Part shown: piece by piece, positions 7,052 to 37,489 of the stretch
Numbering within the stretch: position 1 is the first letter of the stretch
How the letters are laid out: each line of letters begins with the position of its first letter
Assembly: GCF_045679555.1 (NCBI RefSeq)
Contig: NC_092091.1
Location: 73,056,287-73,120,286 of the forward strand
DNA from: Salvelinus alpinus
Lineage: Eukaryota; Chordata; Actinopteri; Salmoniformes; Salmonidae
Direction: 5' to 3'
DNA: 64,000 bases
Made by a program: the position numbers and the translations under genes
The notes under the pieces: model-generated
What the model was told of the DNA's origin: nothing
Databases searched by the model: none
What the model saw: only the letters and a program-made list of their open reading frames with translations

Positions 7052-7191
7052 TTCGGCAGTTCTGACGAGCGCTCAATACACGGAAATCTCACGATGGCTG
7101 AATGGTCAACGTTGATCAACATCCGGTAGAAAAGATTAAACTCAATGCTACGGTACAATCATGAACCTTATGCTCCAAATTCCTCCATGTC

Positions 7192-7280
7192 CCTTCGATA
7201 GCTCAGTTGGTAGAGCGGAGGACTGTAGAACGCTAAATACTGAAATCCTTAGGTCGCTGGTTCAAATCCGGCTCGAAGGA
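7192..7280 (+). tRNA. tRNA-Tyr(GTA), intron-containing
   Basis: The 7-bp acceptor stem CCTTCGA/TCGAAGG plus discriminator A, the D arm GCTC-AGTTGGTA-GAGC and anticodon loop CTGTAGA are intact, followed by a 16-nt intron before TCCTT. The T arm is GCTGG-TTCAAAT-CCGGC. A TTTTT polymerase III terminator follows within 10 bp (ggacacttttt). It decodes UAC and is the only fully intact tyrosine copy outside the 36-49 kb array. Confidence 0.93.
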
Positions 7281-7459
7281 GGACACTTTTTCTACCTCAT
7301 CAATGGGCCCCAAACAATATTTTTTGCTGTTCGCACATCCCCCTATAGAGAATAATATGTGCATTTCCAGTTTCCTTAAAGAATAGTCTAGGTGTACGAA
7401 TCCAATCATACAGAAGAAAACAAAACACTTCAAGTTTATCCAAAAATATTCTCCACATT

Positions 7460-7530
7460 CAATAGCTCAGTTGGTAGAGCAGCGGACTGTAGAATACTAC
7501 ATGCTGAAATCCGACTTGAGGAGGACTCTT
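7460..7530 (+). pseudogene. tRNA-Tyr relic, T arm lost
   Basis: The 5' half is well kept (aatagctcagttggtagagc, then ggactgtaga with an intron-like stretch). After the intron it jumps to ccgacttgaggagga, so the T arm and B box are missing and the acceptor stem cannot close. The same relic recurs in each 1.44-kb unit. Confidence 0.8.
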
Positions 7531-7710
7531 TTCCTACCTCATAAATGCCCCTAAAAGATATACATTTGCCTGTTGTTCGCACATTCCCCTATAGAGAATA
7601 AAACGTGCATTTCCAGTTTTCTAATTAGGAAAGATTCCAAGTTAACTCACAAAATATTAAAGAAGGATTCAGAACGCATAGGATAATCCACATTTCCAAA
7701 TCATCGTAGT

Positions 7711-7801
7711 CCTTCGATATCTCAGTTGCTAGAGCGGTGGACTGTAGGATAGTAAATAATTAAATTTTTAGGTCGCTGGTTCAAATCCTGCTCCCGGAGG
7801 A
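7711..7801 (+). pseudogene. tRNA-Tyr-like relic with mutated stems
   Basis: The order of arms is complete, including ctgtagg and ggtcgctggttcaaatcc. The 3' acceptor side is tcccggagga instead of tcgaagga, and the D arm and intron region carry further changes (ttgctagagc). It has A- and B-box-like sequence but a poor acceptor stem, so it is probably not a functional tRNA. Confidence 0.75.
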
Positions 7802-7976: not shown

Positions 7977-8048
7977 TTCCCTGACCGGGAATCGAACCCG
8001 GGCCGCGGCGGTGAGAGCGCCGAATCCTAACCACTAGACCACCAGGGA
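7977..8048 (-). tRNA. tRNA-Glu(CTC), probable founder-type copy
   Basis: On the minus strand it has acceptor TCCCTGG/TCAGGGA with discriminator A, D arm with GTCTAGTGGTTAGGAT, anticodon stem CGGCG/CGCCG around CTCTCAC (anticodon CTC, codon GAG), and T arm CCGGG-TTCGATT-CCCGG. It keeps G at position 9. A TTTT terminator lies 12 nt past the 3' end (tctagacttttgcg). Of the copies here this best fits a functional vertebrate tRNA-Glu. Confidence 0.95.
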
Positions 8049-11908: not shown

Positions 11909-11980
11909 TTCCGTGACCGGGAATCGAACCCGGGCCGCGGCGGTGAGAGCACCGAACCCTAACCACTAGACAACCAGGGA
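11909..11980 (-). pseudogene. tRNA-Glu(CTC) copy with acceptor-stem mismatch
   Basis: Its 3' end reads GTCACGGAA instead of GTCAGGGAA, which breaks one acceptor pair. The stretch before the anticodon arm reads AGGGTTCGGTG instead of AGGATTCGGCG. It lies immediately right of the hAT insertion. Confidence 0.75.
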
Positions 11981-12001
11981 AGGATATTGAAATGGTACAT
12001 A

Positions 12002-12491
12002 CAGTTGAAGTCTGAAGTTTACATACACTTAGGTTGGAGTCATTAAAACTCGTTTGTCAACCATTCCACACATTTCTTGTTAACAAACTATAGTTTTGGC
12101 AAGTCGGTTAGGACATCTACTTTGTGCATGACACAAGTAATTTTCCAAAAATTGTTTACAGACAGATTATTTCACTTATAATTCAGTGTATCACAAATCC
12201 AGTGGGTCAGAAGTTTACAAACACTAGGTTGGCTGTGACTTTAAACAACTTGGACAATGACCAAAAATGATGTCCTGGCTTTAGAATCTTCTGATAGGCT
12301 AATTGACATAATTTGAGTCAATTGGAGGTGTACCTGTAGATGTATTTCATGGCCTGCCTTCAAACTCAGTGCCTCTTTGCTTGAGATCATGGGATTTTCA
12401 AAAGAAATCAGCCAAGACCTCAGAAATAAAATGTAGACCTCGGAAGGACACTGCAGGGAAAATCATTTTGTAATTTGAAGAGGTACAGTGA
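12002..12491 (+). mobile_element. Truncated Tc1-like 5' end
   Basis: Starts at the terminal repeat and breaks at the same internal point as the 8093 copy (gtagacctc|ggaaggacactgcaggg), so the two are duplicates rather than independent insertions. It is followed by a tRNA-Glu. Confidence 0.85.
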
Positions 12492-12563
12492 TTCCCTGAC
12501 CGGGAATCGAACCCGGGCCGCGGCGGTGAGAGCGCCGAATCCTAACCACTAGACAACCAGGGA
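12492..12563 (-). tRNA. tRNA-Glu(CTC), T9 variant
   Basis: All stems pair and the anticodon is CTC. Position 9 is T (TCCCTGGTTGTCTAG). There is no TTTT run within 40 bp of the 3' end. Confidence 0.85.
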
Positions 12564-12607
12564 AGGATACTGCAATTCAAATTGCTTCACAATTTGAAAT
12601 GGTACAT

Positions 12608-13666
12608 ACAGTTGAAGTCTGAAGTTTACATACACTTAGGTTGGAGTCATTAAAACTCGTTTGTCAACCATTCCACAGATTTCTTGTTAACAAACTATAG
12701 TTTTGGCAAGTCGGTTAGGACATCTACTTTGTGCATGACACAAGTAATTTTCCAAAAATTGTTTACAGACAGATTATTTCACTTATAATTCAGTGTATCA
12801 CAAATCCAGTGGGTCAGAAGTTTACAAACACTAGGTTGGCTGTGCCTTTAAACAACTTGGACAATGACCAAAAATGATGTCCTGGCTTTAGAATCTTCTG
12901 ATAGGCTAATTGACATAATTTGAGTCAATTGGAGGTGTACCTGTAGATGTATTTCATGGCCTGCCTTCAAACTCAGTGCCTCTTTGCTTGAGATCATGGG
13001 ATTTTCAAAAGAAATCAGCCAAGACCTCAGAAATAAAATGTAGACCTCCACAAGTCTGGTTCATCCTTGGGAGCAATTTCCAAACGCCTGAAGGTACCAC
13101 GTTCCTCTGTACAAGCAATAGTATGCAAAACAACAGCAAAGGACCTTGTGAAGATGCTGGAGGAAACAGGTACAAAAGTATAAGTCTGGTTCATCCTTGG
13201 GAGCAATTTCCAAACGCCTGAAGGTACCACGTTCCTCTGTACAAGCAATAGTATGCAAAACAACAGCAAAGGACCTTGTGAAGATGCTGGAGGAAACAGG
13301 TACAAAAGTATCTACAGTGAAACGAGTCCTATATCGACATAACCTGAAAGGCCGCTGAGCAAGGAAGAAGCTACTGCTCGAAAACCGCCATAAAAATGCC
13401 AGACTACAGTTTGGGGACAAAGATCCTACTTTTTGGAGAAATGTCCTCTGGTCTGATGAAACAAAAATAGAAGTGTTTGGCCATATTGACCATTGTTATG
13501 TTTGGAGGAGAAAGGGGGTGTCTTGCAAGCCGAAGAACACCATCCCAACCGTGAAGCACAGGAGTGGCAGCATCATGTTGTGGGGGTGCAGGAGAGACTG
13601 GTGCACCACTAGAACACCAGGGAAGGACACTGCAGGGCAAATGGTTTTGTAATTTGAAGTGGTACA
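12608..13666 (+). mobile_element. Tc1-like element with transposase relic and 130-bp internal duplication
   Basis: It has the same 5' end as its neighbours, but continues from about 13052 into transposase sequence (LGAI-KRLKVP region, then NLKGR, then the WRNVLWSDE region near 13434-13461, then the CYVWRRKG region). A roughly 130-bp block (13054-13183) is repeated in tandem at 13184-13313. Premature stop: the codon after NLKGR is TGA (about 13357). The rest of the catalytic domain and the right terminal repeat are absent. Confidence 0.85.
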
Positions 13667-13732
13667 TATGTGCGATAACCTACTAAATTCATGGTGACAG
13701 GTTGCACAAGTAAACAAGTCGCAAAAGACTAG

Positions 13733-13804
13733 TTCCCTGACCGGGAATCGAACCCGGGCCGCGGCGGTGAGAGCACCGAATCCTAACCACTAGACCACCA
13801 GGGA
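13733..13804 (-). tRNA. tRNA-Glu(CTC), G9, with terminator
   Basis: G9 form. One change in the anticodon stem (CGGTG/CGCCG) leaves a G-U pair. The 3' flank is tagtcttttgcgac, so a TTTT terminator is present, as at 7977. Confidence 0.88.
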
Positions 13805-13849
13805 AGGATACTGCAGTGCAAATTGGTCCACAATTTGAAATGGTACATA

Positions 13850-14340
13850 CAGTTGAAGTCTGAAGTTTACATAAACTTAGGTTGGAGTCATTAAAACTCG
13901 TTTGTCAACCATTCTACACATTTCTTGTAAACAAACTATAGTTTTGGCCAATCGGGTCGGACATCTACTTTGTGCATGACACAAGTAATTTTTCCAAAAA
14001 TTGTTTACAGACAGATTATTTCACTTATGATTCAGTGTATCACAAATCCAGTGGGTCAGAAGTTTACAAACACTAGGTTGGCTGTGCCTTTAAACAACTT
14101 GGAAAATGACCAAAAATGATGTCCTGGCTTTAGAATCTTCTGATAGGCTAATTGACATAATTTGAGTCAATTGGAGGTGTACCTGTAGATGTATTTCATG
14201 GCCTGCCTTCAAACTCAGTGCCTCTTTGCTTGAGATCATGGGATTTTCAAAAGAAATCAGCCAAGACCTCAGAAATAAAATGTAGACCTCGGAAGGACAC
14301 TGCAGGGAAAATCATTTTGTAATTTGAAGAGGTACAGTGA
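13850..14340 (+). mobile_element. Truncated Tc1-like 5' end
   Basis: Same left end and break point as the other copies. It carries private changes (ttggccaatcgggtcggaca) shared only with the copy starting at 14458. Confidence 0.85.
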
Positions 14341-14412
14341 TTCCCTGACCGGGAATCGAACCCGGGCCGCGGCGGTGAGAGCGCCGAATCCTAACCACTA
14401 GACAACCAGGGA
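14341..14412 (-). tRNA. tRNA-Glu(CTC), T9 variant
   Basis: Consensus T9 copy with no stem mismatch. The 3' flank on its own strand (cactgtacctcttc) lacks a T run. Confidence 0.85.
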
Positions 14413-14457
14413 AGGATACTGCAATTCAAATTGATTCACAATTTGAAATGGTACATA

Positions 14458-14947
14458 CAGTTGAAGTCTGAAGTTTACATACACTTAGGTTGGAGTCATT
14501 AAAACTCGTTTGTCAACCATTCTACACATTTCTTGTAAACAAACTATAGTTTTGGCCAATCGGGTCGGACATCTACTTTGTGCATGACACAAGTAATTTT
14601 TCCAAAATTTTTTACAGACAGATTATTTCACTTATGATTCAGTGTATCACAAATCCAGTGGGTCAGAAGTTTACAAACACTAGGTTGGCTGTGCCTTTAA
14701 ACAACTTGGAAAATGACCAAAAATGATGTCCTGGCCTTAGAATCTTCTGATAGGCTAATTGACATAATTTGAGTCAATTGGAGGTGTACCTGTAGATGTA
14801 TTTCATGGCCTGCCTTCAAACTCAGTGCCTCTTTGCTTGAGATCATGGGATTTTCAAAAGAAATCAGCCAAGACCTCAGAAATAAAATGTAGACCTCGGA
14901 AGGACACTGCAGGGAAAATCATTTTGTAATTTGAAGAGGTACAGTGA
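14458..14947 (+). mobile_element. Truncated Tc1-like 5' end
   Basis: Sister of the 13850 copy (shared ccaatcgggtcgg). The leader reads ccaaaattttttacag instead of ccaaaaattgtttacag. Confidence 0.85.
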
Positions 14948-15019
14948 TTCCCTGACCGGGAATCGAACCCGGGCCACGGCGGTGAGAGCACCGAATCCTA
15001 ACCACTAGACAACCAGGGA
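14948..15019 (-). tRNA. tRNA-Glu(CTC), T9, two substitutions
   Basis: Differs by G-U in the anticodon stem (CGGTG) and by C to T at the start of the variable region (CCGTGGCCC). It could still fold. Confidence 0.75.
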
Positions 15020-15064
15020 AGGATACTGCAATTCAAATTGCTTCACAATTTGAAATGGTACATA

Positions 15065-15990
15065 CAGTTGAAGTCTGAAGTTTACATACACTTAGGTTGG
15101 AGTCATTAAAACTCGTTTGTCAACCATTCCACACATTTCTTGTTAACAAACTATAGTTTTGGCAAGTCGGTTAGGACATCTACTTTGTGCATGACACAAG
15201 TAATTTTCCAAAAATTGTTTACAGACAGATTATTTCACTTATAATTCAGTGTATCACAAATCCAGTGGGTCAGAAGTTTACAAACACTAGGTTGGCTGTG
15301 CCTTTAAACAACTTGGACAATGACCAAAAATGATGTCCTGGCTTTAGAATCTTCTGATAGGCTAATTGACATAATTTGAGTCAATTGGAGGTGTACCTGT
15401 AGATGTATTTCATGGCCTGCCTTCAAACTCAGTGCCTCTTTGCTTGAGATCATGGGATTTTCAAAAGAAATCAGCCAAGACCTCAGAAATAAAATGTAGA
15501 CCTCCACAAGTCTGGTTCATCCTTGGGAGCAATTTCCAAACGCCTGAAGGTACCACGTTCCTCTGTACAAGCAATAGTATGCAAAACAACAGCAAAGGAC
15601 CTTGTGAAGATGCTGGAGGAAACAGGTACAAAAGTATCTACAGTGAAACGAGTCCTATATCGACATAACCTGAAAGGCCGCTGAGCAAGGAAGAAGCTAC
15701 TGCTCGAAAACCGCCATAAAAATGCCAGACTACAGTTTGGGGACAAAGATCCTACTTTTTGGAGAAATGTCCTCTGGTCTGATGAAACAAAAATAGAAGT
15801 GTTTGGCCATATTGACCATTGTTATGTTTGGAGGAGAAAGGGGGTGTCTTGCAAGCCGAAGAACACCATCCCAACCGTGAAGCACAGGAGTGGCAGCATC
15901 ATGTTGTGGGGGTGCAGGAGAGACTGGTGCACCACTAGAACACCAGGGAAGGACACTGCAGGGCAAATGGTTTTGTAATTTGAAGTGGTA
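15065..15990 (+). mobile_element. Tc1-like element with transposase relic
   Basis: A duplicate of the 12608-13666 element but with only one copy of the 130-bp block. The transposase relic runs about 15508-15950 and contains the same TGA stop after NLKGR, so the duplication post-dates inactivation. Confidence 0.85.
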
Positions 15991-16058
15991 CATATGTGCG
16001 ATAACCTACTAAATTCATGGTGACAGGTTGCACAAGTAAACAAGTCGCAAAAGACTAG

Positions 16059-16130
16059 TTCCCTGACCGGGAATCGAACCCGGGCCGCGGCGGTGAGAGC
16101 GCCGAATCCTAACCACTAGACCACCAGGGA
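16059..16130 (-). tRNA. tRNA-Glu(CTC), G9, with terminator
   Basis: Identical to the 7977 gene over the 72 bases, with the same cgcaaaag flank giving a TTTT terminator on its strand. Together with 7977 it is the best candidate for an expressed copy. Confidence 0.93.
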
Positions 16131-16175
16131 AGGATACTGCAGTGCAAATTGGTCCACAATTTGAAATGGTACATA

Positions 16176-16666
16176 CAGTTGAAGTCTGAAGTTTACATAA
16201 ACTTAGGTTGGAGTCATTAAAACTCGTTTGTCAACCATTCTACACATTTCTTGTAAACAAACTATAGTTTTGGCAAATCGGTTAGGACATCTACTTTGTG
16301 CATGACACAAGTAATTTTTCCAAAAAATGTTTACAGACAGATTATTTCACTTATGATTCAGTGTATCACAAATCCAGTGGGTCAGAAGTTTACAAACACT
16401 AGGTTGGCTGTGACTTTAAACAACTTGGACAATGACCAAAAATGATGTCCTGGCTTTAGAATCTTCTGATAGGCTAATTGACATAATTTGAGTCAATTGG
16501 AGGTGTACCTGTAGATGTATTTCATGGCCTGCCTTCAAACTCAGTGCCTCTTTGCTTGAGATCATGGGATTTTCAAAAGAAATCAGCCAAGACCTCAGAA
16601 ATAAAATGTAGACCTCGGAAGGACACTGCAGGGGAAATCATTTTGTAATTTGAAGAGGTACAGTGA
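16176..16666 (+). mobile_element. Truncated Tc1-like 5' end
   Basis: Same architecture as its neighbours, with one change in the leader (ccaaaaaatgtttacag). Confidence 0.85.
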
Positions 16667-16738
16667 TTCCCTGACCGGGAATCGAATCCGGGCCGCGGCG
16701 GTGAGAGCGCCGAATCCTAACCACTAGACAACCAGGGA
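16667..16738 (-). tRNA. tRNA-Glu(CTC), T9, T-stem mutation
   Basis: The T arm reads CCGGATTCGATTCCCGG, so the normally invariant G53-C61 pair is lost. That may impair both B-box binding and folding. Confidence 0.65.
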
Positions 16739-16836
16739 AGGATACTGCAATTCAAATTGCTTCACAATTTGAAATGGTACATACAGTTGAAGTCTGAAGT
16801 TTACATACACTTAGGTTGGAGTCATTAAAACTCGTT

Positions 16837-16936
16837 NNNNNNNNNNNNNNNNNNNNNNNNNNNNNNNNNNNNNNNNNNNNNNNNNNNNNNNNNNNNNNNN
16901 NNNNNNNNNNNNNNNNNNNNNNNNNNNNNNNNNNNN
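16837..16936. other. Assembly gap (100 N)
   Basis: Exactly 100 N, the convention for a gap of unknown size. It interrupts a Tc1 5' end (starting 16784) and a tRNA-Glu gene whose last 26 bases remain at 16937-16962, so at least one repeat boundary, and possibly many units, is missing. Confidence 1.
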
Positions 16937-16962
16937 AATCCTAACCACTAGACAACCAGGGA
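16937..16962 (-). tRNA. tRNA-Glu(CTC), cut by the gap
   Basis: Only the acceptor 5' strand, D arm and start of the anticodon stem are present (T9 type). The rest is in the gap. Confidence 0.8.
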
Positions 16963-17498
16963 AGGATACTGCAATTCAAATTGTTTCACAATTTGAAATG
17001 GTACATACAGTTGAAGTCTGAAGTTTACATACACTTAGGTTGGAGTCATTAAAACTCGTTTGTCAACCATTCCACACATTTCTTGTTAACAAACTATAGT
17101 TTTGGCAAGTCGGTTAGGACATCGACTTTGTGCATGACACAAGTCATTTTTCCAAAAATTGTTTACAGACAGATTATTTCACTTATAATTCAGTGTATCA
17201 CAAATCCAGTGGGTCAGAAGTTTAAAAACACTAGGTTGGCTGTGCCTTTAAACAACTTGGACAATGACCAAAAATGATGTCCTGGCTTTAGAATCTTCTG
17301 ATAGGCTAATTGACATAATTTGAGTCAATTGGAGGTGTACCTGTAGATGTATTTCATGGCCTGCCTTCAAACTCGGTGCCTCTTTGCTTGAGATCGTGGG
17401 ATTTTCAAAAGGAATCAGCCAAGACCTCAGAAATAAAATGTAGACCTCGGAAGGACACTGCAGGGCAAATCATTTTGTAATTTGAAGAGGTACAGATA

Positions 17499-17570
17499 TT
17501 CCCTGACCGGGAATCGAACCCGGGCCGCGGCGGTGAGAGCGCCGAATCCTAACCACTAGACAACCAGGGA
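17499..17570 (-). tRNA. tRNA-Glu(CTC), T9, unit 1 first gene
   Basis: Consensus array sequence with all stems paired. The 3' flank on its strand is tatctgtacctcttc, without a T run. Confidence 0.87.
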
Positions 17571-17711
17571 AGGATACTGCAATTCAAATTGCTTCACAAT
17601 TTGAAATGGTACATACAGTTGAAGAAATCAGCCAAGACCTCAGAAATAAAATGTAGACCTCGGAAGGACACTGCAGGGCAAATCATTTTGTAATTTGAAG
17701 AGGTACAGATA

Positions 17712-17783
17712 TTCCCTGACCGGGAATCGAACCCGGGCCGCGGCGGTGAGAGCGCCGAATCCTAACCACTAGACCACCAGGGA
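17712..17783 (-). tRNA. tRNA-Glu(CTC), G9, unit 1 second gene
   Basis: Carries the founder-type G9 (GGTGGTCTAG) inside the array, but with the array's terminator-less flank. Confidence 0.88.
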
Positions 17784-18320
17784 AGGATACTACAATTCAA
17801 ATTGTTTCACAATTTGAAATGGTACATACAGTTGAAGTCTGAAGCTTACATACACTTAGGTTGGAGTCATTAAAACTCGTTTGTCAACCATTCCACACAT
17901 TTCTTGTTAACAAACTATAGTTTTGGCAAGTCGGTTAGGACATCTACTTTGTGCATGACACAAGTCATTTCTCCAAAAATTGTTTACAGACAGATTATTT
18001 CACTTAAAATTCAGTGTATCACAAATCCAGTGGGTCAGAAGTTTACAAACACTAGGTTGGCTGTGCCTTTAAACAACTTGGACAATGACCAAAAATGATG
18101 TCCTGGCTTTAGAATCTTCTGATAGGCTAATTGACATAATTTGAGTCAATTGGAGGTGTACCTGTAGATGTATTTCATGGCCTGCCTTCAAACTCAGTGC
18201 CTCTTTGCTTGAGATCATGGGATTTTCAAAAGAAATCAGCCAAGACCTCAGAAATAAAATGTACGCCTCGGAAGGACACTGCAGGGCAAATCATTTTGTA
18301 ATTTATAAGAGGTACAGATA

Positions 18321-18392
18321 TTCCCTGACCGGGAATCGAACCCGGGCCGCGGCGGTGAGAGCGCCGAATCCTAACCACTAGACAACCAGGGA
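18321..18392 (-). tRNA. tRNA-Glu(CTC), T9, unit 2 first gene
   Basis: Consensus array copy, preceded on the plus strand by the atttataagaggtacagata flank. Confidence 0.87.
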
Positions 18393-18533
18393 AGGATACT
18401 GCAATCCAAATTGCTTCACAATTTGAAATGGTACATACAGTTGAAGAAATCAGCCAAGACCTCAGAAATAAAATGTAGACCTCGGAAGGACACTGCAGGG
18501 CAAATCGTTTCGTACTTTGAAGTTGTACAGATA

Positions 18534-18605
18534 TTCCCTGACCGGGAATCGAACCCGGGCCGCGGCGGTGAGAGCGCCGAATCCTAACCACTAGACAACC
18601 AGGGA
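18534..18605 (-). tRNA. tRNA-Glu(CTC), T9, unit 2 second gene
   Basis: Consensus array copy with the divergent flank cgtttcgtactttgaagttg. Confidence 0.87.
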
Positions 18606-19142
18606 AGGATACTGCAATTCAAATTGCTTCACAATTTGAAATGGTACATACAGTTGAAGTCTGAAGCTTACATACACTTAGGTTGGAGTCATTAAAACTC
18701 GTTTGTCAACCATTCCACACATTTCTTGTTAACAAACTATAGTTTTGGCAAGTCGGTTAGGACATCTACTTTGTGCATGACACAAGTCATTTCTCCAAAA
18801 ATTGTTTACAGACAGATTATTTCACTTATAATTCAGTGTATCACAAATCCAGTGGGTCAGAAGTTTACAAACACTAGGTTGGCTGTGCCTTTAAACAACT
18901 TGGACAATGACCAAAAATGATGTCCTGGCTTTAGAATCTTCTGATAGGCTAATTGACATAATTTGAGTCAATTGGAGGTGTACCTGTAGATGTATTTCAT
19001 GGCCTGCCTTCAAACTCGGTGCCTCTTTGCTTGAGATCGTGGGATTTTCAAAAGGAATCAGCCAAGACCTCAGAAATAAAATGTAGACCTCGGAAGGACA
19101 CTGCAGGGCAAATCATTTTGTAATTTATAAGAGGTACAGATA

Positions 19143-19214
19143 TTCCCTGACCGGGAATCGAACCCGGGCCGCGGCGGTGAGAGCGCCGAATCCTAACCAC
19201 TAGACAACCAGGGA
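19143..19214 (-). tRNA. tRNA-Glu(CTC), T9, unit 3 first gene
   Basis: Consensus array copy. The 5' flank has the private ggattctgcaattc. Confidence 0.87.
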
Positions 19215-19355
19215 AGGATTCTGCAATTCAAATTGCTTCACAATTTGAAATGGTACATACAGTTGAAGAAATCAGCCAAGACCTCAGAAATAAAATGTAG
19301 ACCTCGGAAGGACACTGCAGGGAAAATCGTTTCGTACTTTGAAGTTGTACAGATA

Positions 19356-19427
19356 TTCCCTGACCGGGAATCGAACCCGGGCCGCGGCGGTGAGAGCGCC
19401 GAATCCTAACCACTAGACAACCAGGGA
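19356..19427 (-). tRNA. tRNA-Glu(CTC), T9, unit 3 second gene
   Basis: Consensus array copy with the cgtttcgtactttgaagttg flank. Confidence 0.87.
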
Positions 19428-19964
19428 AGGATACTGCAATTCAAATTGTTTCACAATTTGAAATGGTACATACAGTTGAAGTCTGAAGTTTACATACACT
19501 TAGGTTGGAGTCATTAAAACTCGTTTGTCAACCATTCCACACATTTCTTGTTAACAAACTATAGTTTTGGCAAGTCGGTTAGGACATCGACTTTGTGCAT
19601 GACACAAGTCATTTTTCCAAAAATTGTTTACAGACAGATTATTTCACTTATAATTCAGTGTATCACAAATCCAGTGGGTCAGAAGTTTAAAAACACTAGG
19701 TTGGCTGTGCCTTTAAACAACTTGGACAATGACCAAAAATGATGTCCTGGCTTTAGAATCTTCTGATAGGCTAATTGACATAATTTGAGTCAATTGGAGG
19801 TGTACCTGTAGATGTATTTCATGGCCTGCCTTCAAACTCGGTGCCTCTTTGCTTGAGATCGTGGGATTTTCAAAAGGAATCAGCCAAGACCTCAGAAATA
19901 AAATGTACGCCTCGGAAGGACACTGCAGGGCAAATCATTTTGTAATTTATAAGAGGTACAGATA

Positions 19965-20036
19965 TTCCCTGACCGGGAATCGAACCCGGGCCGCGGCGGT
20001 GAGAGCGCCGAATCCTAACCACTAGACAACCAGGGA
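19965..20036 (-). tRNA. tRNA-Glu(CTC), T9, unit 4 first gene
   Basis: Consensus array copy. The 5' flank reads ggattgtgcaatcc, shared with units 6 and 8. Confidence 0.87.
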
Positions 20037-20177
20037 AGGATTGTGCAATCCAAATTGCTTCACAATTTGAAATGGTACATACAGTTGAAGAAATCAGCCA
20101 AGACCTCAGAAATAAAATGTAGACCTCGGAAGGACACTGCAGGGCAAATCATTTTGTAATTTGAAGAGGTACAGATA

Positions 20178-20249
20178 TTCCCTGACCGGGAATCGAACCC
20201 GGGCCGCGGCGGTGAGAGCGCCGAATCCTAACCACTAGACCACCAGGGA
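20178..20249 (-). tRNA. tRNA-Glu(CTC), G9, unit 4 second gene
   Basis: G9 form and flanks (ggatactacaattc) identical to the 17712 copy, so units 1 and 4 share a recent ancestor or conversion tract. Confidence 0.88.
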
Positions 20250-20786
20250 AGGATACTACAATTCAAATTGTTTCACAATTTGAAATGGTACATACAGTTG
20301 AAGTCTGAAGCTTACATACACTTAGGTTGGAGTCATTAAAACTCGTTTGTCAACCATTCCACACATTTCTTGTTAACAAACTATAGTTTTGGCAAGTCGG
20401 TTAGGACATCTACTTTGTGCATGACACAAGTCATTTCTCCAAAAATTGTTTACAGACAGATTATTTCACTTAAAATTCAGTGTATCACAAATCCAGTGGG
20501 TCAGAAGTTTACAAACACTAGGTTGGCTGTGCCTTTAAACAACTTGGACAATGACCAAAAATGATGTCCTGGCTTTAGAATCTTCTGATAGGCTAATTGA
20601 CATAATTTGAGTCAATTGGAGGTGTACCTGTAGATGTATTTCATGGCCTGCCTTCAAACTCGGTGCCTCTTTGCTTGAGATCGTGGGATTTTCAAAAGGA
20701 ATCAGCCAAGACCTCAGAAATAAAATGTAGACCTCGGAAGGACACTGCAGGGCAAATCATTTTGTAATTTATAAGAGGTACAGATA

Positions 20787-20858
20787 TTCCCTGACCGGGA
20801 ATCGAACCCGGGCCGCGGCGGTGAGAGCGCCGAATCCTAACCACTAGACAACCAGGGA
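20787..20858 (-). tRNA. tRNA-Glu(CTC), T9, unit 5 first gene
   Basis: Consensus array copy with the atttataag flank. Confidence 0.87.
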
Positions 20859-20999
20859 AGGATACTGCAATTCAAATTGCTTCACAATTTGAAATGGTAC
20901 ATACAGTTGAAGAAATCAGCCAAGACCTCAGAAATAAAATGTAGACCTCGGAAGGACACTGCAGGGCAAATCGTTTCGTACTTTGAAGTTGTACAGATA

Positions 21000-21071
21000 T
21001 TCCCTGACCGGGAATCGAACCCGGGCCGCGGCGGTGAGAGCGCCGAATCCTAACCACTAGACAACCAGGGA
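21000..21071 (-). tRNA. tRNA-Glu(CTC), T9, unit 5 second gene
   Basis: Consensus array copy with the cgtttcgtac flank. Confidence 0.87.
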
Positions 21072-21608
21072 AGGATACTGCAATTCAAATTGTTTCACAA
21101 TTTGAAATGGTACATACAGTTGAAGTCTGAAGTTTACATACACTTAGGTTGGAGTCATTAAAACTCGTTTGTCAACCATTCCACACATTTCTTGTTAACA
21201 AACTATAGTTTTGGCAAGTCGGTTAGGACATCGACTTTGTGCATGACACAAGTCATTTTTCCAAAAATTGTTTACAGACAGATTATTTCACTTATAATTC
21301 AGTGTATCACAAATCCAGTGGGTCAGAAGTTTAAAAACACTAGGTTGGCTGTGCCTTTAAACAACTTGGACAATGACCAAAAATGATGTCCTGGCTTTAG
21401 AATCTTCTGATAGGCTAATTGACATAATTTGAGTCAATTGGAGGTGTACCTGTAGATGTATTTCATGGCCTGCCTTCAAACTCGGTGCCTCTTTGCTTGA
21501 GATCGTGGGATTTTCAAAAGGAATCAGCCAAGACCTCAGAAATAAAATGTAGACCTCGGAAGGACACTGCAGGGCAAATCATTTTGTAATTTATAAGAGG
21601 TACAGATA

Positions 21609-21680
21609 TTCCCTGACCGGGAATCGAACCCGGGCCGCGGCGGTGAGAGCGCCGAATCCTAACCACTAGACAACCAGGGA
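21609..21680 (-). tRNA. tRNA-Glu(CTC), T9, unit 6 first gene
   Basis: Consensus array copy with the ggattgtgcaatcc 5' flank. Confidence 0.87.
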
Positions 21681-21821
21681 AGGATTGTGCAATCCAAATT
21701 GCTTCACAATTTGAAATGGTACATACAGTTGAAGAAATCAGCCAAGACCTCAGAAATAAAATGTAGACCTCGGAAGGACACTGCAGGGCAAATCATTTTG
21801 TAATTTGAAGAGGTACAGATA

Positions 21822-21893
21822 TTCCCTGACCGGGAATCGAACCCGGGCCGCGGCGGTGAGAGCGCCGAATCCTAACCACTAGACAACCAGGGA
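21822..21893 (-). tRNA. tRNA-Glu(CTC), T9, unit 6 second gene
   Basis: Sits in the same tttgaagaggtacagata flank as the G9 genes at 17712 and 20178 but is T9, so position 9 and flank type have recombined. Confidence 0.87.
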
Positions 21894-22430
21894 AGGATAC
21901 TGCAATTCAAATTGTTTCACAATTTGAAATGGTACATACAGTTGAAGTCTGAAGTTTACATACACTTAGGTTGGAGTCATTAAAACTCGTTTGTCAACCA
22001 TTCCACACATTTCTTGTTAACAAACTATAGTTTTGGCAAGTCGGTTAGGACATCGACTTTGTGCATGACACAAGTCATTTTTCCAAAAATTGTTTACAGA
22101 CAGATTATTTCACTTATAATTCAGTGTATCACAAATCCAGTGGGTCAGAAGTTTAAAAACACTAGGTTGGCTGTGCCTTTAAACAACTTGGACAATGACC
22201 AAAAATGATGTCCTGGCTTTAGAATCTTCTGATAGGCTAATTGACATAATTTGAGTCAATTGGAGGTGTACCTGTAGATGTATTTCATGGCCTGCCTTCA
22301 AACTCGGTGCCTCTTTGCTTGAGATCGTGGGATTTTCAAAAGAAATCAGCCAAGACCTCAGAAATAAAATGTACGCCTCGGAAGGACACTGCAGGGCAAA
22401 TCATTTTGTAATTTATAAGAGGTACAGATA

Positions 22431-22502
22431 TTCCCTGACCGGGAATCGAACCCGGGCCGCGGCGGTGAGAGCGCCGAATCCTAACCACTAGACAACCAGG
22501 GA
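22431..22502 (-). tRNA. tRNA-Glu(CTC), T9, unit 7 first gene
   Basis: Consensus array copy. The 3' side lies next to gtacgcctcgg, a variant shared with units 2 and 4. Confidence 0.87.
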
Positions 22503-22643
22503 AGGATACTGCAATTCAAATTGCTTCACAATTTGAAATGGTACATACAGTTGAAGAAATCAGCCAAGACCTCAGAAATAAAATGTAGACCTCGGAAGGA
22601 CACTGCAGGGCAAATCGTTTCGTACTTTGAAGTTGTACAGATA

Positions 22644-22715
22644 TTCCCTGACCGGGAATCGAACCCGGGCCGCGGCGGTGAGAGCGCCGAATCCTAACCA
22701 CTAGACAACCAGGGA
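22644..22715 (-). tRNA. tRNA-Glu(CTC), T9, unit 7 second gene
   Basis: Consensus array copy with the cgtttcgtac flank. Confidence 0.87.
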
Positions 22716-23252
22716 AGGATACTGCAATTCAAATTGTTTCACAATTTGAAATGGTACATACAGTTGAAGTCTGAAGTTTACATACACTTAGGTTGGAGTC
22801 ATTAAAACTCGTTTGTCAACCATTCCACACATTTCTTGTTAACAAACTATAGTTTTGGCAAGTCGGTTAGGACATCGACTTTGTGCATGACACAAGTCAT
22901 TTCTCCAAAAATTGTTTACAGACAGATTATTTCACTTATAATTCAGTGTATCACAAATCCAGTGGGTCAGAAGTTTAAAAACACTAGGTTGGCTGTGCCT
23001 TTAAACAACTTGGACAATGACCAAAAATGATGTCCTGGCTTTAGAATCTTCTGATAGGCTAATTGACATAATTTGAGTCAATTGGAGGTGTACCTGTAGA
23101 TGTATTTCATGGCCTGCCTTCAAACTCGGTGCCTCTTTGCTTGAGATCGTGGGATTTTCAAAAGGAATCAGCCAAGACCTCAGAAATAAAATGTAGACCT
23201 CGGAAGGACACTGCAGGGCAAATCATTTTGTAATTTATAAGAGGTACAGATA

Positions 23253-23324
23253 TTCCCTGACCGGGAATCGAACCCGGGCCGCGGCGGTGAGAGCGCCGAA
23301 TCCTAACCACTAGACAACCAGGGA
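23253..23324 (-). tRNA. tRNA-Glu(CTC), T9, unit 8 first gene
   Basis: Consensus array copy with the ggattgtgcaatcc 5' flank. Confidence 0.87.
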
Positions 23325-23465
23325 AGGATTGTGCAATCCAAATTGCTTCACAATTTGAAATGGTACATACAGTTGAAGAAATCAGCCAAGACCTCAGAAA
23401 TAAAATGTAGACCTCGGAAGGACACTGCAGGGCAAATCATTTTGTAATTTGAAGAGGTACAGATA

Positions 23466-23537
23466 TTCCCTGACCGGGAATCGAACCCGGGCCGCGGCGG
23501 TGAGAGCGCCGAATCCTAACCACTAGACAACCAGGGA
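23466..23537 (-). tRNA. tRNA-Glu(CTC), T9, unit 8 second gene
   Basis: Consensus array copy with the tttgaagaggtac flank. Confidence 0.87.
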
Positions 23538-24074
23538 AGGATACTGCAATTCAAATTGCTTCACAATTTGAAATGGTACATACAGTTGAAGTCTGAAGCT
23601 TACATACACTTAGGTTGGAGTCATTAAAACTCGTTTGTCAACCATTCCACACATTTCTTGTTAACAAACTATAGTTTTGGCAAGTCGGTTAGGACATCGA
23701 CTTTGTGCATGACACAAGTCATTTTTCCAAAAATTGTTTACAGACAGATTATTTCACTTATAATTCAGTGTATCACAAATCCAGTGGGTCAGAAGTTTAA
23801 AAACACTAGGTTGGCTGTGCCTTTAAACAACTTGGACAATGACCAAAAATGATGTCCTGGCTTTAGAATCTTCTGATAGGCTAATTGACATAATTTGAGT
23901 CAATTGGAGGTGTACCTGTAGATGTATTTCATGGCCTGCCTTCAAACTCGGTGCCTCTTTGCTTGAGATCGTGGGATTTTCAAAAGGAATCAGCCAAGAC
24001 CTCAGAAATAAAATGTAGACCTCGGAAGGACACTGCAGGGCAAATCATTTTGTAATTTATAAGAGGTACAGATA

Positions 24075-24146
24075 TTCCCTGACCGGGAATCGAACCCGGG
24101 CCGCGGCGGTGAGAGCGCCGAATCCTAACCACTAGACAACCAGGGA
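24075..24146 (-). tRNA. tRNA-Glu(CTC), T9, unit 9 first gene
   Basis: Consensus array copy with the atttataag flank. Confidence 0.87.
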
Positions 24147-24287
24147 AGGATACTGCAATCCAAATTGCTTCACAATTTGAAATGGTACATACAGTTGAAG
24201 AAATCAGCCAAGACCTCAGAAATAAAATGTAGACCTCGGAAGGACACTGCAGGGCAAATCGTTTCGTACTTTGAAGTTGTACAGATA

Positions 24288-24359
24288 TTCCCTGACCGGG
24301 AATCGAACCCGGGCCGCGGCGGTGAGAGCGCCGAATCCTAACCACTAGACAACCAGGGA
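24288..24359 (-). tRNA. tRNA-Glu(CTC), T9, unit 9 second gene (last of the array)
   Basis: Consensus array copy with the cgtttcgtac flank. The next unit is cut short by the minisatellite before reaching another tRNA. Confidence 0.87.
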
Positions 24360-24859
24360 AGGATACTACAATTCAAATTGTTTCACAATTTGAAATGGTA
24401 CATACAGTTGAAGTCTGAAGCTTACATACACTTAGGTTGGAGTCATTAAAACTCGTTTGTCAACCATTCCACACATTTCTTGTTAACAAACTATAGTTTT
24501 GGCAAGTCGGTTAGGACATCTACTTTGTGCATAACACAAGTCATTTCTCCAAAAATTGTTTACAGACAGATTATTTCACTTATAATTCAGTGTATCACAA
24601 ATCCAGTGGGTCAGAAGTTTACAAACACTAGGTTGGCTGTGCCTTTAAACAACTTGGACAATGACCAAAAATGATGTCCTGGCTTTAGAATCTTCTGATA
24701 GGCTAATTGACATAATTTGAGTCAATTGGAGGTGTACCTGTAGATGTATTTCATGGCCTGCCTTCAAACTCGGTGCCTCTTTGCTTGAGATCGTGGGATT
24801 TTCAAAAGGAATCAGCCAAGACCTCAGAAATAAAATGTAGACCTCGGAAGGACACTGCA

Positions 24860-27800
24860 CCCTAACGACAGGACGCACCCTGACGCACCCTAACGACGCA
24901 CCCTGACACACCCTAACAACGCACCCTGACGACACAACGCACCCTGACGAAACCTAACGATGCACCCTGACGCACCCTAACGACGCACTCTGACGAACCC
25001 TAACGACGCACCCTAACGACAGGACGCACCCTGACGCACCCTAACGACGCACCCTGACGCACCCTAACAACGCACCCTAACGACAGGACGCACCCTGACG
25101 CACCCTAACGACGCATCCTGACGACACAACGCACCCTGACGAACCCTAACGACGCACCCTGACGCACCCTAACGACGCACCCTGACGCACCCTAACGACG
25201 CACTCTGACGAACCCTAACGACGCACCCTAACGACAGGACGCACCCTGACGCACCCTAACGACGCACCCTGACGCACCCTAACAACGCACCCTAACGACA
25301 GGACGCACCCTGACGCACCCTGACGCACCCTGACGCACCCTAACGACGCACCCTGACGAACCCTAACGACGCACCCTGACGAACCTTAACGACGCAACCT
25401 GACGCACCCTAACGACGCAACCTGACTCACCCTAACAACGCACCCTGACGACACAACACACCCTGACGAACCCTAACGACGCACCCTATCGCACCCTAAC
25501 GACGCACCCTGACACACCCTAACAACGCACCCTGACGACACAACGCACCCTGACGAACCCTAACGACGCACCCTGACGCACCCTAACGACGCACCCTGAC
25601 GCACCCTAACTACGCACTCTGACGAACCCTAACGACGCACCCTAACGACAGGACGCACCCTGACGCACCCTAACGACGCACCCTGACGCACCCTAACAAC
25701 GCACCCTAACGACAGGACGCACCCTGACGCACCCTAACGACGCACCCTGACGACACAACGCACCCTGACGAACCCTAACGATGCACCCTGACGCACCCTA
25801 ACGACGCACCCTGACGTACCCTAACGACGCACTCTGACGAACCCTAACGACGCACCCTAACGACAGGACGCACCCTGACGCACCCTAACGACGCACCCTG
25901 ACGCACCCTAACAACGCACCCTAACGACAGGACGCACCCTGACGCACCCTGACGCACCCTGACGCACCCTAACGACGCACCCTGACGAACCCTAACGACG
26001 CACCCTGACGAACCTTAACGACGCACCCTGACGCACCCTAACGACGCAACCTGACTCACCCTAACAACGCACCCTGACGACACAACGCACCCTGACGAAC
26101 CCTAACGACGCACCCTATCGCACCCTAACGACGCACCCTGACACACCTTAACAACGCACCCTGACGACACAACGCACCCTGACGAACCCTAAAGACGCAC
26201 CCTGACGCACCCTAACGACGCACCCTGACGCACCCTAACGACGCACCCTGACGAACCCTAACGACGCACCCTGACGAACCTTAACGACGCACCCTGACGC
26301 ACCCTAACGACGCACCCTGACCCACCCTAACAACGCACCCTGACGACACAACGCACCCTGACGCACCCTAACGACGCACCCTGACGCACCATAACGACGC
26401 ACCCTGACACACCCTAACGACGCACCCTGACGAACCCTAACAACGCACCCTGACGACACAACGCACCCTAACGACGCACCCTAACGACGCACCCTAACAA
26501 CGCACCCTGACGACACAACGCACCCTGACGAACCCTAACGACGCACCCTGACGCACCCTAACGACGCACCCTGACGCACCCTAACGACGCACTCTGACGA
26601 ACCCTAACGACGCACCCTGACGCACCCTAACAACGCACCCTAACGACAGGACGCACCCTGACGCACCCTGACGCACCCTGACGCACCCTAACTGACGCAC
26701 CCTAACGACCCTAACGAGGACGCACCCTGACGCACCCTGACGCACCCTGACGCACCCTGACGCACCCTAACGACGCACCCTGACGCACCCTAACGACGCA
26801 CCCTGACGCACCCTAACAACGCACCCTGACGACACAACGCACCCTGACGAACCCTAACGACGCACCCTGACGCACCCTAACAACGCACCCTGACACACCT
26901 TAACAACGCACCCTGACGACACAACGCACCCTGACGAACCCTAACGACGCACCCTGACGCACCCTAACGACGCACCCTGACGCACCCTAACGACGCACCC
27001 TGACGAACCCTAACGACGCACCCTGATGAACCTTAACGACGCACCCTGACGCACCCTAACGACGCACCCTGACGCACCCTAACAACGCACCCTGACGACA
27101 CAACGCACCCTGCCGCACCCTAACGACGCACCCTGACGCACCATAACGACGCACCCTGACACACCCTAACGACGCACCCTGACGAACCCTAACAACGCAC
27201 CCTGACGACACAACGCACCCTAACGACGCACCCTAACGACGCACCCTAACAACGCACCCTGACGACACAACGCACCCTGACGAACCCTAACGACGCACCC
27301 TAACGACGCAACCTATCGCACCCTAACGACGCACCCTGACACACCCTAACGACGCACCCTGACGCACCCTAACAACGCATCCTGACGACACAACGCACCC
27401 TGACGAACCCTAACGACGCACCCTGACGCACCCTAACGACGCACCCTGACGCACCCTAACGACGCACCCTGACGCACCCTAACGACGCACCCTGACACAC
27501 CCTAACAACGCACCCTGAGGACACAACGCACCCTGACGAACCCTAACGACGCACCCTGACGCACCCTAACGACGCACCCTGACGCACCCTAACGACGCAC
27601 CCTGACGAACCCTAACGACGCACCCTAACGACGCACCCTGACGCACCCTAACAACGCACCCTAACGACAGGACGCAACCTGACGCACCCTAACGACGCAC
27701 CCTGACACACCCTAACAACGCACCCTGACGACACAACGCACCCTGACGAAACCTAACGACGCACCCTGACGCACCCTAACGACGCACCCTGACGCACCCT

Positions 27801-30800
27801 AACGACGCACTCGGACGAACCCTAACGACGCACCCTAACGACCCTAAGGACGCACCCTGACGCACCCTAACGACGCACCCTGACACACTCTAACAACGCA
27901 CCCTGACGACACAACGCACCCTGACGAAACCTAACGATGCACCCTGACGCACTCTAACGACGCACCCTGACGCACCCTAACGACGCACTCTGACGAACCC
28001 TAACGACGCACCCTAACGACAGCACGCACCCTGACGCACCCTAACGACGCACCCTGACGCACCCTAACAACGCACCCTAACGACAGGACGCACCCTGACG
28101 CACCCTGACGCACCCTGACGCACCCTGACGCACCCTAACAACGCACCCTAACGACACAACGCACCCTGACGCACCCTAACGACGCACCCTGACGCACCCT
28201 AACGACGCACCCTGACGCACCCTAACGACGCACCCTGACGAACCCTAACAACGCACCCTGACGACACAACGCACCCTAACGACGCACCCTATCGCACCCT
28301 AACGACACACCCTGACACACCCTAACGACGCACCCTGACACACCCTAACGACGCACCCTGACGACACAACGCACCCTGACGAACCCTAACGACGCACCCT
28401 GACGCACCCTAACGACGCACCCTGACGCACCCTAACGACGCACCCTGACGCACCCTAACGAAGCACCCTGACACACCCTAACAACGCACCCTGACGACAC
28501 AACGCACCCTGACGAACCCTAACGACGCACCCTGACGCACCCTAACGACGCACCCTGATGCACCCTAACGACGCACCCTGACGAACCCTAACAACGCACC
28601 CTGACGACACAACGCACCCTAACGACGCACCCTAACGACGCACCCTAACAACGCACCCTGACGACACAACGCACCCTGACGAACCCTAACGACGCACCCT
28701 GACGCACCCTAACGACGCACCCTGACGCACCCTAACGACGCACTCTGACGAACCCTAACGACGCACCCTAACGACAGGACGCATCCTGACGCACCCTAAC
28801 GACGCACCCTGACGCACCCTAACAACGCACCCTAACGACAGGACGCACCCTGACGCACCCTAACGACGCACCCTGACGCACCCTAACGACGCACCCTGAC
28901 GCACCCTAACGACGCACCCTGCCGCACCCTAACGACGCACCCTGACGCACCCTAACGACGCACCCTGACACACCCTAACGACGCACCCTGACGAACCCTA
29001 ACAACGCACCCTGACGACACAACGCACCCTAACGACGCACCCTAACGACGCACCCTAACAACGCACCCTGACGACACAACGCACCCTGACGAACCCTAAC
29101 GACGCAACCTAACGACGCAACCTATCGCACCCTAACGACGCACCCTAACGACGCACCCTATCGCACCCTAACGCACCCTAACGCACCCTAACGACGCACC
29201 CTGACACACCCTAACGACGCACCCTGACGCACCCTAACAACGCACGACGCACCCTGACGAACCCTAACGACGCACCCTGACGAACCTAACAACGCACCCT
29301 AACGACAGGACGCACCCTGACGCACCCTAACGACGCACCCTGACACACCCTAACAACGCACCCTGACGACACAACGCACCCTGACGAAACCTAACGACGC
29401 ACCCTGACGCACCCTAACGACGCACCCTGACGAACCCTAACGACGCACCCTAACGACAGGACGCACACTGACGCACCCTAACGACGCACCCTGACGCACC
29501 CTAACAACGCACCCTAACGACAGGACGCACCCTGACGCACCCTAACGACGCACCCTGACGACACAACGCACCCTGACGCACCCTAACGACGCACCCTGAC
29601 GCACCCTAACGACGCACCCTGACGCACCCTAACGACGCACTCTGACGAACCCTAACGACGCACCCTAACGACAGGACGCACCCTGACGCACCCTAACGAC
29701 GCACCCTGACGCACCCTAACAACGCACCCTAACGACAGGACGCACCCTGAAGCACCCTGACGCACCCTGACGCACCCTAACGACGCACCCTGACGAACCC
29801 TAACGACGCACCCTGACGAACCTTAACGACGCACCCTGACGCACCCTAACGACGCAACCTGACTCACCCTAACAACGCACCCTGACGACACAACACACCC
29901 TGACGAACCCTAACGACGCACCCTATCGCACCCTAACGACGCACCCTGACACACCTTAACAACGCACCCTGACGACACAACGCACCCTGACGAACCCTAA
30001 CGACGCACCCTGACGCACCCTAACGACGCACCCTGACGCACCCTAACGACGCACTCTGACGAACCCTAACGACGCACCCTAACGACAGGACGCACCCTGA
30101 CGCACCCTAACGACGCACCCTGACGCACCCTAACAACGCACCCTAACGACAGGACGCACCCTGACGCACCCTAACGACGCACCCTGACGACACAACGCAC
30201 CCTGACGAACCCTAACGATGCACCCTGACGCACCCTAACGACGCACCCTGACGTACCCTAACGACGCACTCTGACGAACCCTAACGACGCACCCTAACGA
30301 CAGGACGCACCCTGACGCACCCTAACGACGCACCCTGACGCACCCTAACAACGCACCCTAACGACAGGACGCACCCTGACGCACCCTGACGCACCCTGAC
30401 GCACCCTAACGACGCACCCTGACGAACCCTAACGACGCACCCTGACGAACCTTAACGACGCACCCTGACGCACCCTAACGACGCAACCTGACTCACCCTA
30501 ACAACGCACCCTGACGACACAACGCACCCTGACGAACCCTAACGACGCACCCTATCGCACCCTAACGACGCACCCTGACACACCTTAACAACGCACCCTG
30601 ACGACACAACGCACCCTGACGAACCCTAAAGACGCACCCTGACGCACCCTAACGACGCACCCTGACGCACCCTAACGACGCACCCTGACGAACCCTAACG
30701 ACGCACCCTGACGAACCTTAACGACGCACCCTGACGCACCCTAACGACGCACCCTGACGCACCCTAACAACGCACCCTGACGACACAACGCACCCTGCCG

Positions 30801-32145
30801 CACCCTAACGACGCACCCTGACGCACCCTAACGACGCACCCTGACGCACCCTAACGACGCACCCTGACGAACCCTAACAACGCACCCTGACGACACAACG
30901 CACCCTAACGACGCACCCTGACACACCCTAACAACGCACCCTGACGACACAACGCACCCTGACGAACCCTAACGACGCAACCTGACGCACCCTAACGACG
31001 CACCCTGACGCACCCTAACGACGCACCCTGACGAACCCTAACGACGCACCCTAACGACAGGACGCACCCTGACGCACCCTAACGACGCACCCTGACGCAC
31101 CCTAACAACGCACCCTAACGACAGGACGCACCCTGACGCACCCTGACGCACCCTGACGCACCCTAACGACGCACCCTGACGCACCCTAACAACGCACCCT
31201 AACGACAGCGCACCCTGACGCACCCTGACGCACCCTGACGCACCCTGACGCACCCTAACGACGCACCCTGACGCACCCTATCGACGCAACCTGACTCACC
31301 CTAACAACGCACCCTGACGACACAACGCACCCTGACGAACCCTAACGACGCACCCTATCGCACCCTAACAACGCACCCTGACACACCTTAACAACGCACC
31401 CTGACGGCACAACGCACCCTGACGAACCCTAACGACGCACCCTGACGCACCCTAACGACGCACCCTGACGCACCCTAACGACGCACCCTGACGAACCCTA
31501 ACGACGCACCCTGACGAACCTTAACGACGCACCCTGACGCACCCTAACGACGCACCCTGACGCACCCTAACAACGCACCCTGACGACACAACGCACCCTG
31601 CCGCACCCTAACGACGCACCCTGACGCACCATAACGACGCACCCTGACACACCCTAACGACGCACCCTGACGAACCCTAACAACGCACCCTGACGACACA
31701 ACGCACCCTAACGACGCACCCTAACGACGCACCCTAACAACGCACCCTGACGACACAACGCACCCTGACGAACCCTAACGACGCACCCTAACGACGCAAC
31801 CTATCGCACCCTAACGACCACACCCTAACGACGCACCCTGACGCACCCTAACAACGCACCCTGACGACACAACGCACCCTGACGAACCCTAACGACGCAC
31901 CCTGACGCACCCTAACGACGCACCCTGACGCACCCTAACGACGCACCCTTACGCACCCTAACGACGCACCCTGACGCACCCTAACAACGCACCCTGACGA
32001 CACAACGCACCCTGACGCACCCTAACGACGCACCCTGACGCACCCTAACGACGCACTATGACGCACCCTAACGACGCACCCTGACGAACCCTAACGACGC
32101 ACCCTAACGACGCACCCTGACGCACCCTAACAACGCACCCTAACG
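24860..32145. repeat. CCCTAAC-containing 10/13-bp minisatellite, 7.3 kb
   Basis: Built from two related monomers, cgcaccctga (10 bp) and cgcaccctaacga (13 bp), with variants such as cgacaca, cgacagga and gaaccct. The minus strand therefore carries TTAGGG once per 13-mer, separated by TGCGTC-type spacers. It is CpG-rich. Longer periods are visible: the marker gcaacctgactcacc occurs with its cctg at 25421, 26050, 29858 and 30487, giving exact repeats of 629 bp and 4,437 bp. Other markers agree (acacaacaca at 25451/29888, cgatgcaccctg at about 25780/30217). The few open frames are chance products of the repeat. Confidence 0.95.
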
Positions 32146-36400: not shown

Positions 36401-36500
36401 NNNNNNNNNNNNNNNNNNNNNNNNNNNNNNNNNNNNNNNNNNNNNNNNNNNNNNNNNNNNNNNNNNNNNNNNNNNNNNNNNNNNNNNNNNNNNNNNNNNN
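36401..36500. other. Assembly gap (100 N)
   Basis: Exactly 100 N between the degraded minisatellite and the 1.44-kb array. The true distance is unknown. Confidence 1.
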
Positions 36501-37445: not shown

Positions 37446-37489
37446 CTAGTCTTTGAACATTGTTTACTTGTGCAAAATGTCTCAACAAA

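Follow-up and report, generated by a model that had tools for sequence, protein, structure and literature searches.

A probable composite satellite of tRNA-Glu genes and broken Tc1 transposons in Salvelinus alpinus

The stretch of DNA analysed here, called the window below, comprises 64,000 nucleotides (nt) of the Salvelinus alpinus genome (assembly GCF_045679555.1, contig NC_092091.1, positions 73,056,287 to 73,120,286 of the forward strand) and contains a regular tandem array of tRNA-Glu genes interleaved with broken Tc1 transposons. An initial annotation, made from the letters of the sequence, had described 18 tRNA-Glu(CTC) genes in nine units of 822 base pairs (bp) with a fixed 213/609-bp spacing, and both ARAGORN and Rfam bear this out for every gene. 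We consider it probable that the array is a composite satellite, derived from a tRNA-Glu gene and a broken Tc1 element, which deletion and tandem amplification have spread locally, and that this DNA is a by-product and no tRNA factory.

The regular array and the copies to its left

The array and its two borders are as follows.

17499 to 24359, minus strand: regular array, 18 tRNA-Glu(CTC) genes in nine 822-bp units with 213/609 spacing
16837 to 16936: assembly gap of 100 N, which truncates the regular array on the left
24861 to 32145: 23-bp minisatellite with CCCTAA (268 times), which breaks off the ninth unit and with it the array

Genes start at 17499+822k and 17712+822k, with k from 0 to 8, on the minus strand (positions from Rfam RF00005), and between 17499 and 24288 every start-to-start distance is either 213 or 609, in strict alternation. 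The CTC anticodon of all 18 genes is named by ARAGORN, and their Rfam scores (53.6 bits in 16, 56.9 bits in two) all exceed the RF00005 gathering score of 29; the initial annotation had named a tRNA scan that classes most copies as pseudogenes as grounds for giving up its proposal, and this did not occur. Across the window, ARAGORN lists 41 tRNA-like genes and Rfam 37 tRNA matches. Such exact spacing over nine units would not arise by chance. The tRNA-like sequences lie head to tail on one strand at a fixed unit length, as in a tandem tRNA gene (tDNA) array, and units 1–8 are mutually 97.96–99.88% alike, as in a higher-order satellite. Stretches of 735–825 bp common to the regular array and to the irregular array on its left (from 13733 on) are 95.5–96.6% alike, and shorter common pieces (512–648 bp) up to 98.4%; likeness within the array is thus close to likeness outside it, and the margin for calling it a higher-order satellite is small. 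A 1,644-bp dimer was considered as the true unit, since units two apart look more similar, and was set aside after an order test (p 0.138).

The left start given in the initial annotation, 16937, is the right edge of the gap and not a biological border: a 19th tRNA-Glu gene is truncated there, with 26 nt left at 16937–16962. Because the gap lies at this edge, the copy number of the array is a claim about the scaffold. On the right, near 24860, the last part of the ninth unit gives way to the 23-bp minisatellite.

The eight further complete tRNA-Glu copies that had been placed to the left are present, at 7977, 11909, 12492, 13733, 14341, 14948, 16059 and 16667, the first of them standing 3.9 kilobases (kb) apart from the others.

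7977 to 8048, minus strand: tRNA-Glu(CTC), canonical body, TTTT 6 nt downstream, Tc1 leader on the 5' side; candidate working gene
11909 to 16836, minus strand: irregular array of seven complete tRNA-Glu copies with Tc1 leaders; two stretches keep much of the transposase frame; reaches the gap
13600 to 13690, plus strand: Tc1 transposase fused to a tRNA-Glu stub, then the 5' flank that belongs to the stub gene, free of Tc1 (empty site)

Tc1 remnants and their junctions

The Tc1 leaders reported beside the genes are real, and the longer copies identify a Tc1-type transposase by Pfam. The copy at 52333–52959 matches PF01498 HTH_Tnp_Tc3_2 above its cut-off of 31.5 (62.1 bits, E 6.3e-17), and the Sleeping Beauty family PF25787 HTH_SB is matched at 41.5 and 42.8 bits, slightly under its cut-off of 43, with E-values of 1.1e-10 in 52333–52959 and 4.3e-11 in the piece 13152–13355; a third transposase piece, 13359–13649, matches no Pfam family. 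The left end differs by a single base from a published Sleeping Beauty primer over the 38 bases of the primer's Tc1 part (PMC6446368). These matches assign the leaders to the Sleeping Beauty type of Tc1. With salmonid elements of this type they share the left end and the N-terminal part of the transposase; unlike them, they survive only as broken pieces.

The site of insertion can be read from the 5' flanks of the tRNA-Glu genes, which match between occupied (three aligned) and empty (four aligned) copies up to a TA and diverge after it. The common flank ends in ...GGTACATA (GGTATATA in the array on the right of the window) and continues with TGTGCGATAACC in one group and with CAGTTGA in the other, the two groups being an empty and an occupied TA site. 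Insertion at TA is visible on one side; the second TA is not visible because the right end is gone. Aligned copies contain only the left end, so that neither the pair of inverted repeats nor the target duplication was found in them, and no Tc1 right end turned up next to the array copies. A tRNA-Glu stub stands in place of the right side, and the Tc1 copies are therefore remnants.

Three joints carry the argument, and they involve the following features, two of which lie beyond the minisatellite.

17616 to 17661, plus strand: Tc1 remnant in the first 213-type spacer, end CAGTTGAAG joined to the transposase start region with AAG common at the joint; internal deletion
17829 to 18320, plus strand: first 609-type spacer; as far as about 18269 it consists of the Tc1 left-end region with the opening transposase codons, and beyond that of what is left of the 5' flank of the tRNA-Glu stub
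36501 to 49154, tRNA-Tyr minus strand, tRNA-Glu plus strand: second (right) array of about 1,440-bp units (1429–1441), inverted relative to the left side, after a second gap
51983 to 53074, plus strand: more diverged composite, Tc1 transposase with the same fusion junction, empty site and decayed tRNA-Glu (minus strand, 53009–53074)

The longer copies have the transposase frame fused to a stub of about 18 bases of a tRNA-Glu gene (GGTGCACCACTAGAACACCAGGG). This joint occurs at 13540 and 15866 (both of the irregular-array copies aligned) and again at 52820; all five right-array units aligned, from an array with nine tRNA-Glu copies, also show it in a form with base changes. The common fusion junction argues that a single composite was ancestral to the left copies and the right array alike. 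The regular array is without it, its spacer retaining the 5' flank of the stub. At a second joint, GTAGACCTC to GGAAGGACACTG, the rest of the transposase has been lost and, further on, the TTTT-bearing spacer is missing, so that the first 609-type spacer is without the terminator-bearing stretch of the older copies. The third joint, CAGTTGAAG to AAATCAGCC, yields the 213-bp spacer. The joints of both the 607 and the 213 units are readable by alignment against the longer copies.

State and variation of the genes

As reference body we used the sequence common to the copies at 7977, 16059, 17712 and 20178 (4 of the 26 complete tRNA-Glu copies). Box B is intact in 25 of the 26, including 18/18 in the regular array, the exception being 16667 (G52A). 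Position 9, which we take to be the purine of the A-box consensus TRGYNNARNNG, has changed from G to T in 21/26 copies and in 16/18 of the array, where box A would accordingly be altered. The initial claim that both internal promoter boxes are kept thus stands for box B and fails for position 9 of box A. The base at position 9 of zebrafish tRNA-Glu is reported to be m1G9 (PMC11417395).

Human RNA polymerase III (Pol III) can terminate at four thymidines, although read-through occurs (PMC5356446). The first downstream TTTT lies at 6 nt in three of the 26 copies (7977, 13733 and 16059), which have the older spacer, at 29 nt in four, one of them in the regular array (19356), and at 57–61 nt in 19, of which 17 are in the regular array. 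The array therefore has its nearest TTTT 29–61 nt downstream in 18/18 genes and closer than 29 nt in none. Intact boxes A and B together with a close T-run, as looked for in a working gene, are not combined in the array, where box B is kept throughout and position 9 is altered in 16 genes. Only 7977 and 16059 join a canonical body to a close TTTT, and these two are predicted to be the likeliest working genes nearby.

The right array offers a comparison. Each unit holds a tRNA-Tyr gene with an intron and a tRNA-Glu gene with a 17-bp tandem duplication of the anticodon arm, and the Tyr-bearing part matches 6967–7675, inverted, at 89–91% identity. A left-hand relative of the Tyr genes lies there:

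7192 to 7280, plus strand: tRNA-Tyr gene with intron, TTTTT 6 nt downstream

TTTT follows at 6 nt in 9 of the 10 listed Tyr copies (7192 and eight of nine in the right array), the tenth, 47028, being shortened; two decayed tRNA-Tyr copies (7458–7512 and 7711–7793) lie between Tyr 7192 and Glu 7977. The right-array tRNA-Glu genes have an altered box B, reading GGTTTGATTAC, in 9/9 copies, no TTTT in the 40 bases after the gene, and T at position 9 in 9/9, and they look like pseudogenes. Removal of the 17-bp duplication nearly restores the arm, yet we rejected the idea of a newborn tRNA intron in view of the altered box B and the absence of a close TTTT. The position-9 T may predate the separation of the two arrays, or have spread by conversion, or have arisen twice.

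Uniformity of the tRNA copies was considered as proof of selection and rejected. Among the 16 of 26 complete copies that have a long Tc1 leader (gap columns dropped), the tRNA varies about as often as the Tc1 part (5/72 against 28/437 sites, Fisher p 0.80), and the irregular copies taken by themselves, seven in number, give 5/72 against 17/437 (p 0.22). The duplicated right-array tRNA-Glu, a presumed pseudogene, is identical in 8/9 copies; seven aligned units have 0/90 variable sites in Glu, 4/89 in Tyr and 26/1250 in the rest, with no significant difference from the rest (p 0.41 for Glu, p 0.13 for Tyr). This count uses seven of eight units, the rearranged unit 47028 being left out; with it included, the figures are 19/89 for Tyr, 0/90 for Glu and 27/1250 for the rest. 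Because the right-array pseudogene is equally uniform, uniformity alone is no evidence of function.

Elsewhere in the window, we note the 3' element of a UnaL2 long interspersed nuclear element at 5835–5888 (Rfam, 73.3 bits), a weak tRNA match on the minus strand at 53732–53804 (30.0 bits, just over the gathering score) and two more minisatellites in 62610–63923 with 40-bp and 23-bp units (98% and 97% matches). Four further long stop-free frames match no Pfam family.

Origin, alternatives and relatives

All states of the origin that we propose are seen side by side in the window, and their order is our reconstruction. At the start would stand tRNA-Glu copies with a TTTT terminator close by in the spacer. 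Next, a Tc1 end of the Sleeping Beauty type would have entered the 5' flank of the gene at the TA of GTACATA, sites elsewhere being empty, and a deletion would have fused the transposase frame to roughly the first 18 bases of a tRNA-Glu gene nearby. Loss of the rest of the transposase and of the terminator-bearing spacer would have given units of about 607 bp, an internal Tc1 deletion the 213-bp unit, and repetition of the 213+609 pair the 822-bp unit, amplified, we suppose, by unequal crossing-over with homogenisation. Among the three readings offered initially (a changed glutamate tRNA pool, boundary DNA and unequal exchange), unequal exchange fits the sequence best. We regard a selfish composite satellite as the likeliest identity of the array, which belongs with the known tandem tDNA arrays. 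The copies in it would add little or nothing to the tRNA-Glu supply, because Pol III must run at least 29 nt, and mostly 60–61 nt, past the gene and because box A is mostly altered; the suggestion of an altered tRNA pool is weakened on the same two counts.

Several observations weigh against this interpretation. Transcription by Pol III past the terminator is said to be quite common in human cells and to extend typically 50–200 nt in yeast (PMC5356446), so that a displaced terminator need not silence a gene. ARAGORN and Rfam accept all array copies as tRNAs, and the uniform 5S genes amplified in pike are considered potentially functional (PMC5437419). Within the regular array, variable sites number 1/144 in the tRNAs and 22/636 in the remainder (p 0.099; columns 1–780 of each unit only, the ninth being cut by the minisatellite), and consensus CpG sites vary at 0/16 in the tRNAs against 5/9 in the flanks, an invariance that points weakly towards protection or use. 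Two of the flank CpG sites change together and two others change only in unit 1, and this partial linkage makes the contrast weak; the right-array tRNA-Glu pseudogene has seven CpG sites alike in 8/9 copies. We therefore did not accept the CpG contrast as proof for or against function, and weak signs of protection remain in the regular array.

The invariant CpG sites in the array tRNAs would suit a working and perhaps oocyte-type tRNA bank, its copy number kept for a burst of tRNA-Glu (and, in the right array, tRNA-Tyr) in eggs or early embryos, and the acceptance of every copy as a tRNA and the close TTTT of most Tyr genes would suit it too. We nevertheless think it unlikely, given that no array tRNA-Glu has a TTTT closer than 29 nt, that G9T affects 16/18 genes at the base reported as m1G9 in zebrafish, and that the pseudogene of the sister array is just as uniform. 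A speculative variant, to which we give very little weight, is a germline bank for a U9 tRNA-Glu, an oocyte-type isodecoder arisen from amplification together with Tc1 debris, whose long 3' trailers into antisense Tc1 would be processed or would feed anti-Tc1 small RNAs. The array might instead act as a chromatin boundary or spacer, with TFIIIC on its many B boxes or CTCF forming a barrier between minisatellite and flanking DNA; box B is intact in every gene, the array adjoins a telomere-like minisatellite, and a human tRNA tandem repeat at 1q23.3 that includes tRNA-Glu is implicated as a boundary (PMC4041453). The sequence lends this reading no support: a CTCF core motif has no match with up to two mismatches in 16937–24859 (13 in the whole window, where 21.24 are expected by chance), by this measure no unit has the CTCF site that marks the 1q23.3 type, and box A is altered in 16/18 genes. 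We regard a boundary role as highly improbable.

An assembly artefact, in which the copy number or the juxtaposition of the two arrays is wrong, must be weighed against two further features of the window.

32146 to 36400: the minisatellite in highly irregular form on the opposite strand, with 43 occurrences of TTAGGG, as far as the second gap
36401 to 36500: second assembly gap of 100 N

The minisatellite as a whole (24861–36400) is telomere-like, of CCCTAAC type. Its strand flips at 32146, and the share of 8-mers in common with the left minisatellite falls from 96–100% (12 stretches within the left part) to 14–22% (nine stretches past 32146, reverse strand); the irregular part is a possible contig-end artefact that looks uncorrected. 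In view of this change and of the gap at 36401, it is uncertain whether the two arrays are correctly joined, and the two 100-N gaps likewise speak for an artefact. The regular and the irregular array, however, each lie within a gap-free stretch, and the nine units differ pairwise at 1–17 of 780 columns in mixed variant patterns, unlike one unit pasted nine times. We consider an assembly artefact of either kind very unlikely.

The satellite that we propose has relatives. The human 1q23.3 repeat likewise consists of tandem units with tRNA genes, including tRNA-Glu, and has long terminal repeat remnants of an endogenous retrovirus beside it; its units are 7.3 kb long, GC-rich and CTCF-binding, with a mouse counterpart (PMC4041453), whereas here 822-bp units surround a broken Tc1, no CTCF-like core was found and the TTTT is displaced. 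Zebrafish has repetitive tRNA clusters, mainly on the long arm of chromosome 4, where many tRNA genes lie in repetitive, transposon-rich DNA; these are tied to expression in eggs (PMC11417395), whereas the present array has one isoacceptor with Tc1 and a displaced TTTT. In pike (Esox), placed near the salmonids, a Pol III gene also forms higher-order tandem blocks whose gene part is more uniform than the spacers, although this is 5S ribosomal RNA in over 20,000 heavily methylated copies (PMC5437419) and not tRNA-Glu in tens of copies in one window with signs of decay. The tandem tRNA-Ser/Tyr-Tyr (SYY) cluster of Arabidopsis also includes tRNA-Tyr, but in a plant, where it is silenced in most tissues and reactivated in root cap cells (PMC12308677). 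The initial description of the array as unusual holds in part: homogeneous tandem tRNA repeats are called uncommon outside Entamoeba (PMC4041453), whereas clustering as such is less so in fish, comprising 65% of tRNA genes and pseudogenes in zebrafish and 87% in stickleback, and occurring rarely in three other teleosts (PMC2888827). Titles and abstract openings of the open-licence literature on tRNA arrays and clusters, salmonid tRNA genes and Tc1/tRNA satellites contained no description of the array, which is no proof of its absence from print.

Collectively, a single window shows how a tRNA locus can become a satellite, with empty site, occupied site, fused copies, shortened copies and final array side by side, and a likely succession of events can be read off from them. 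Although none of the array genes has a close terminator, tRNA scanners accept all 18 of them, a caution that bears on the very large tRNA counts reported for some fish.

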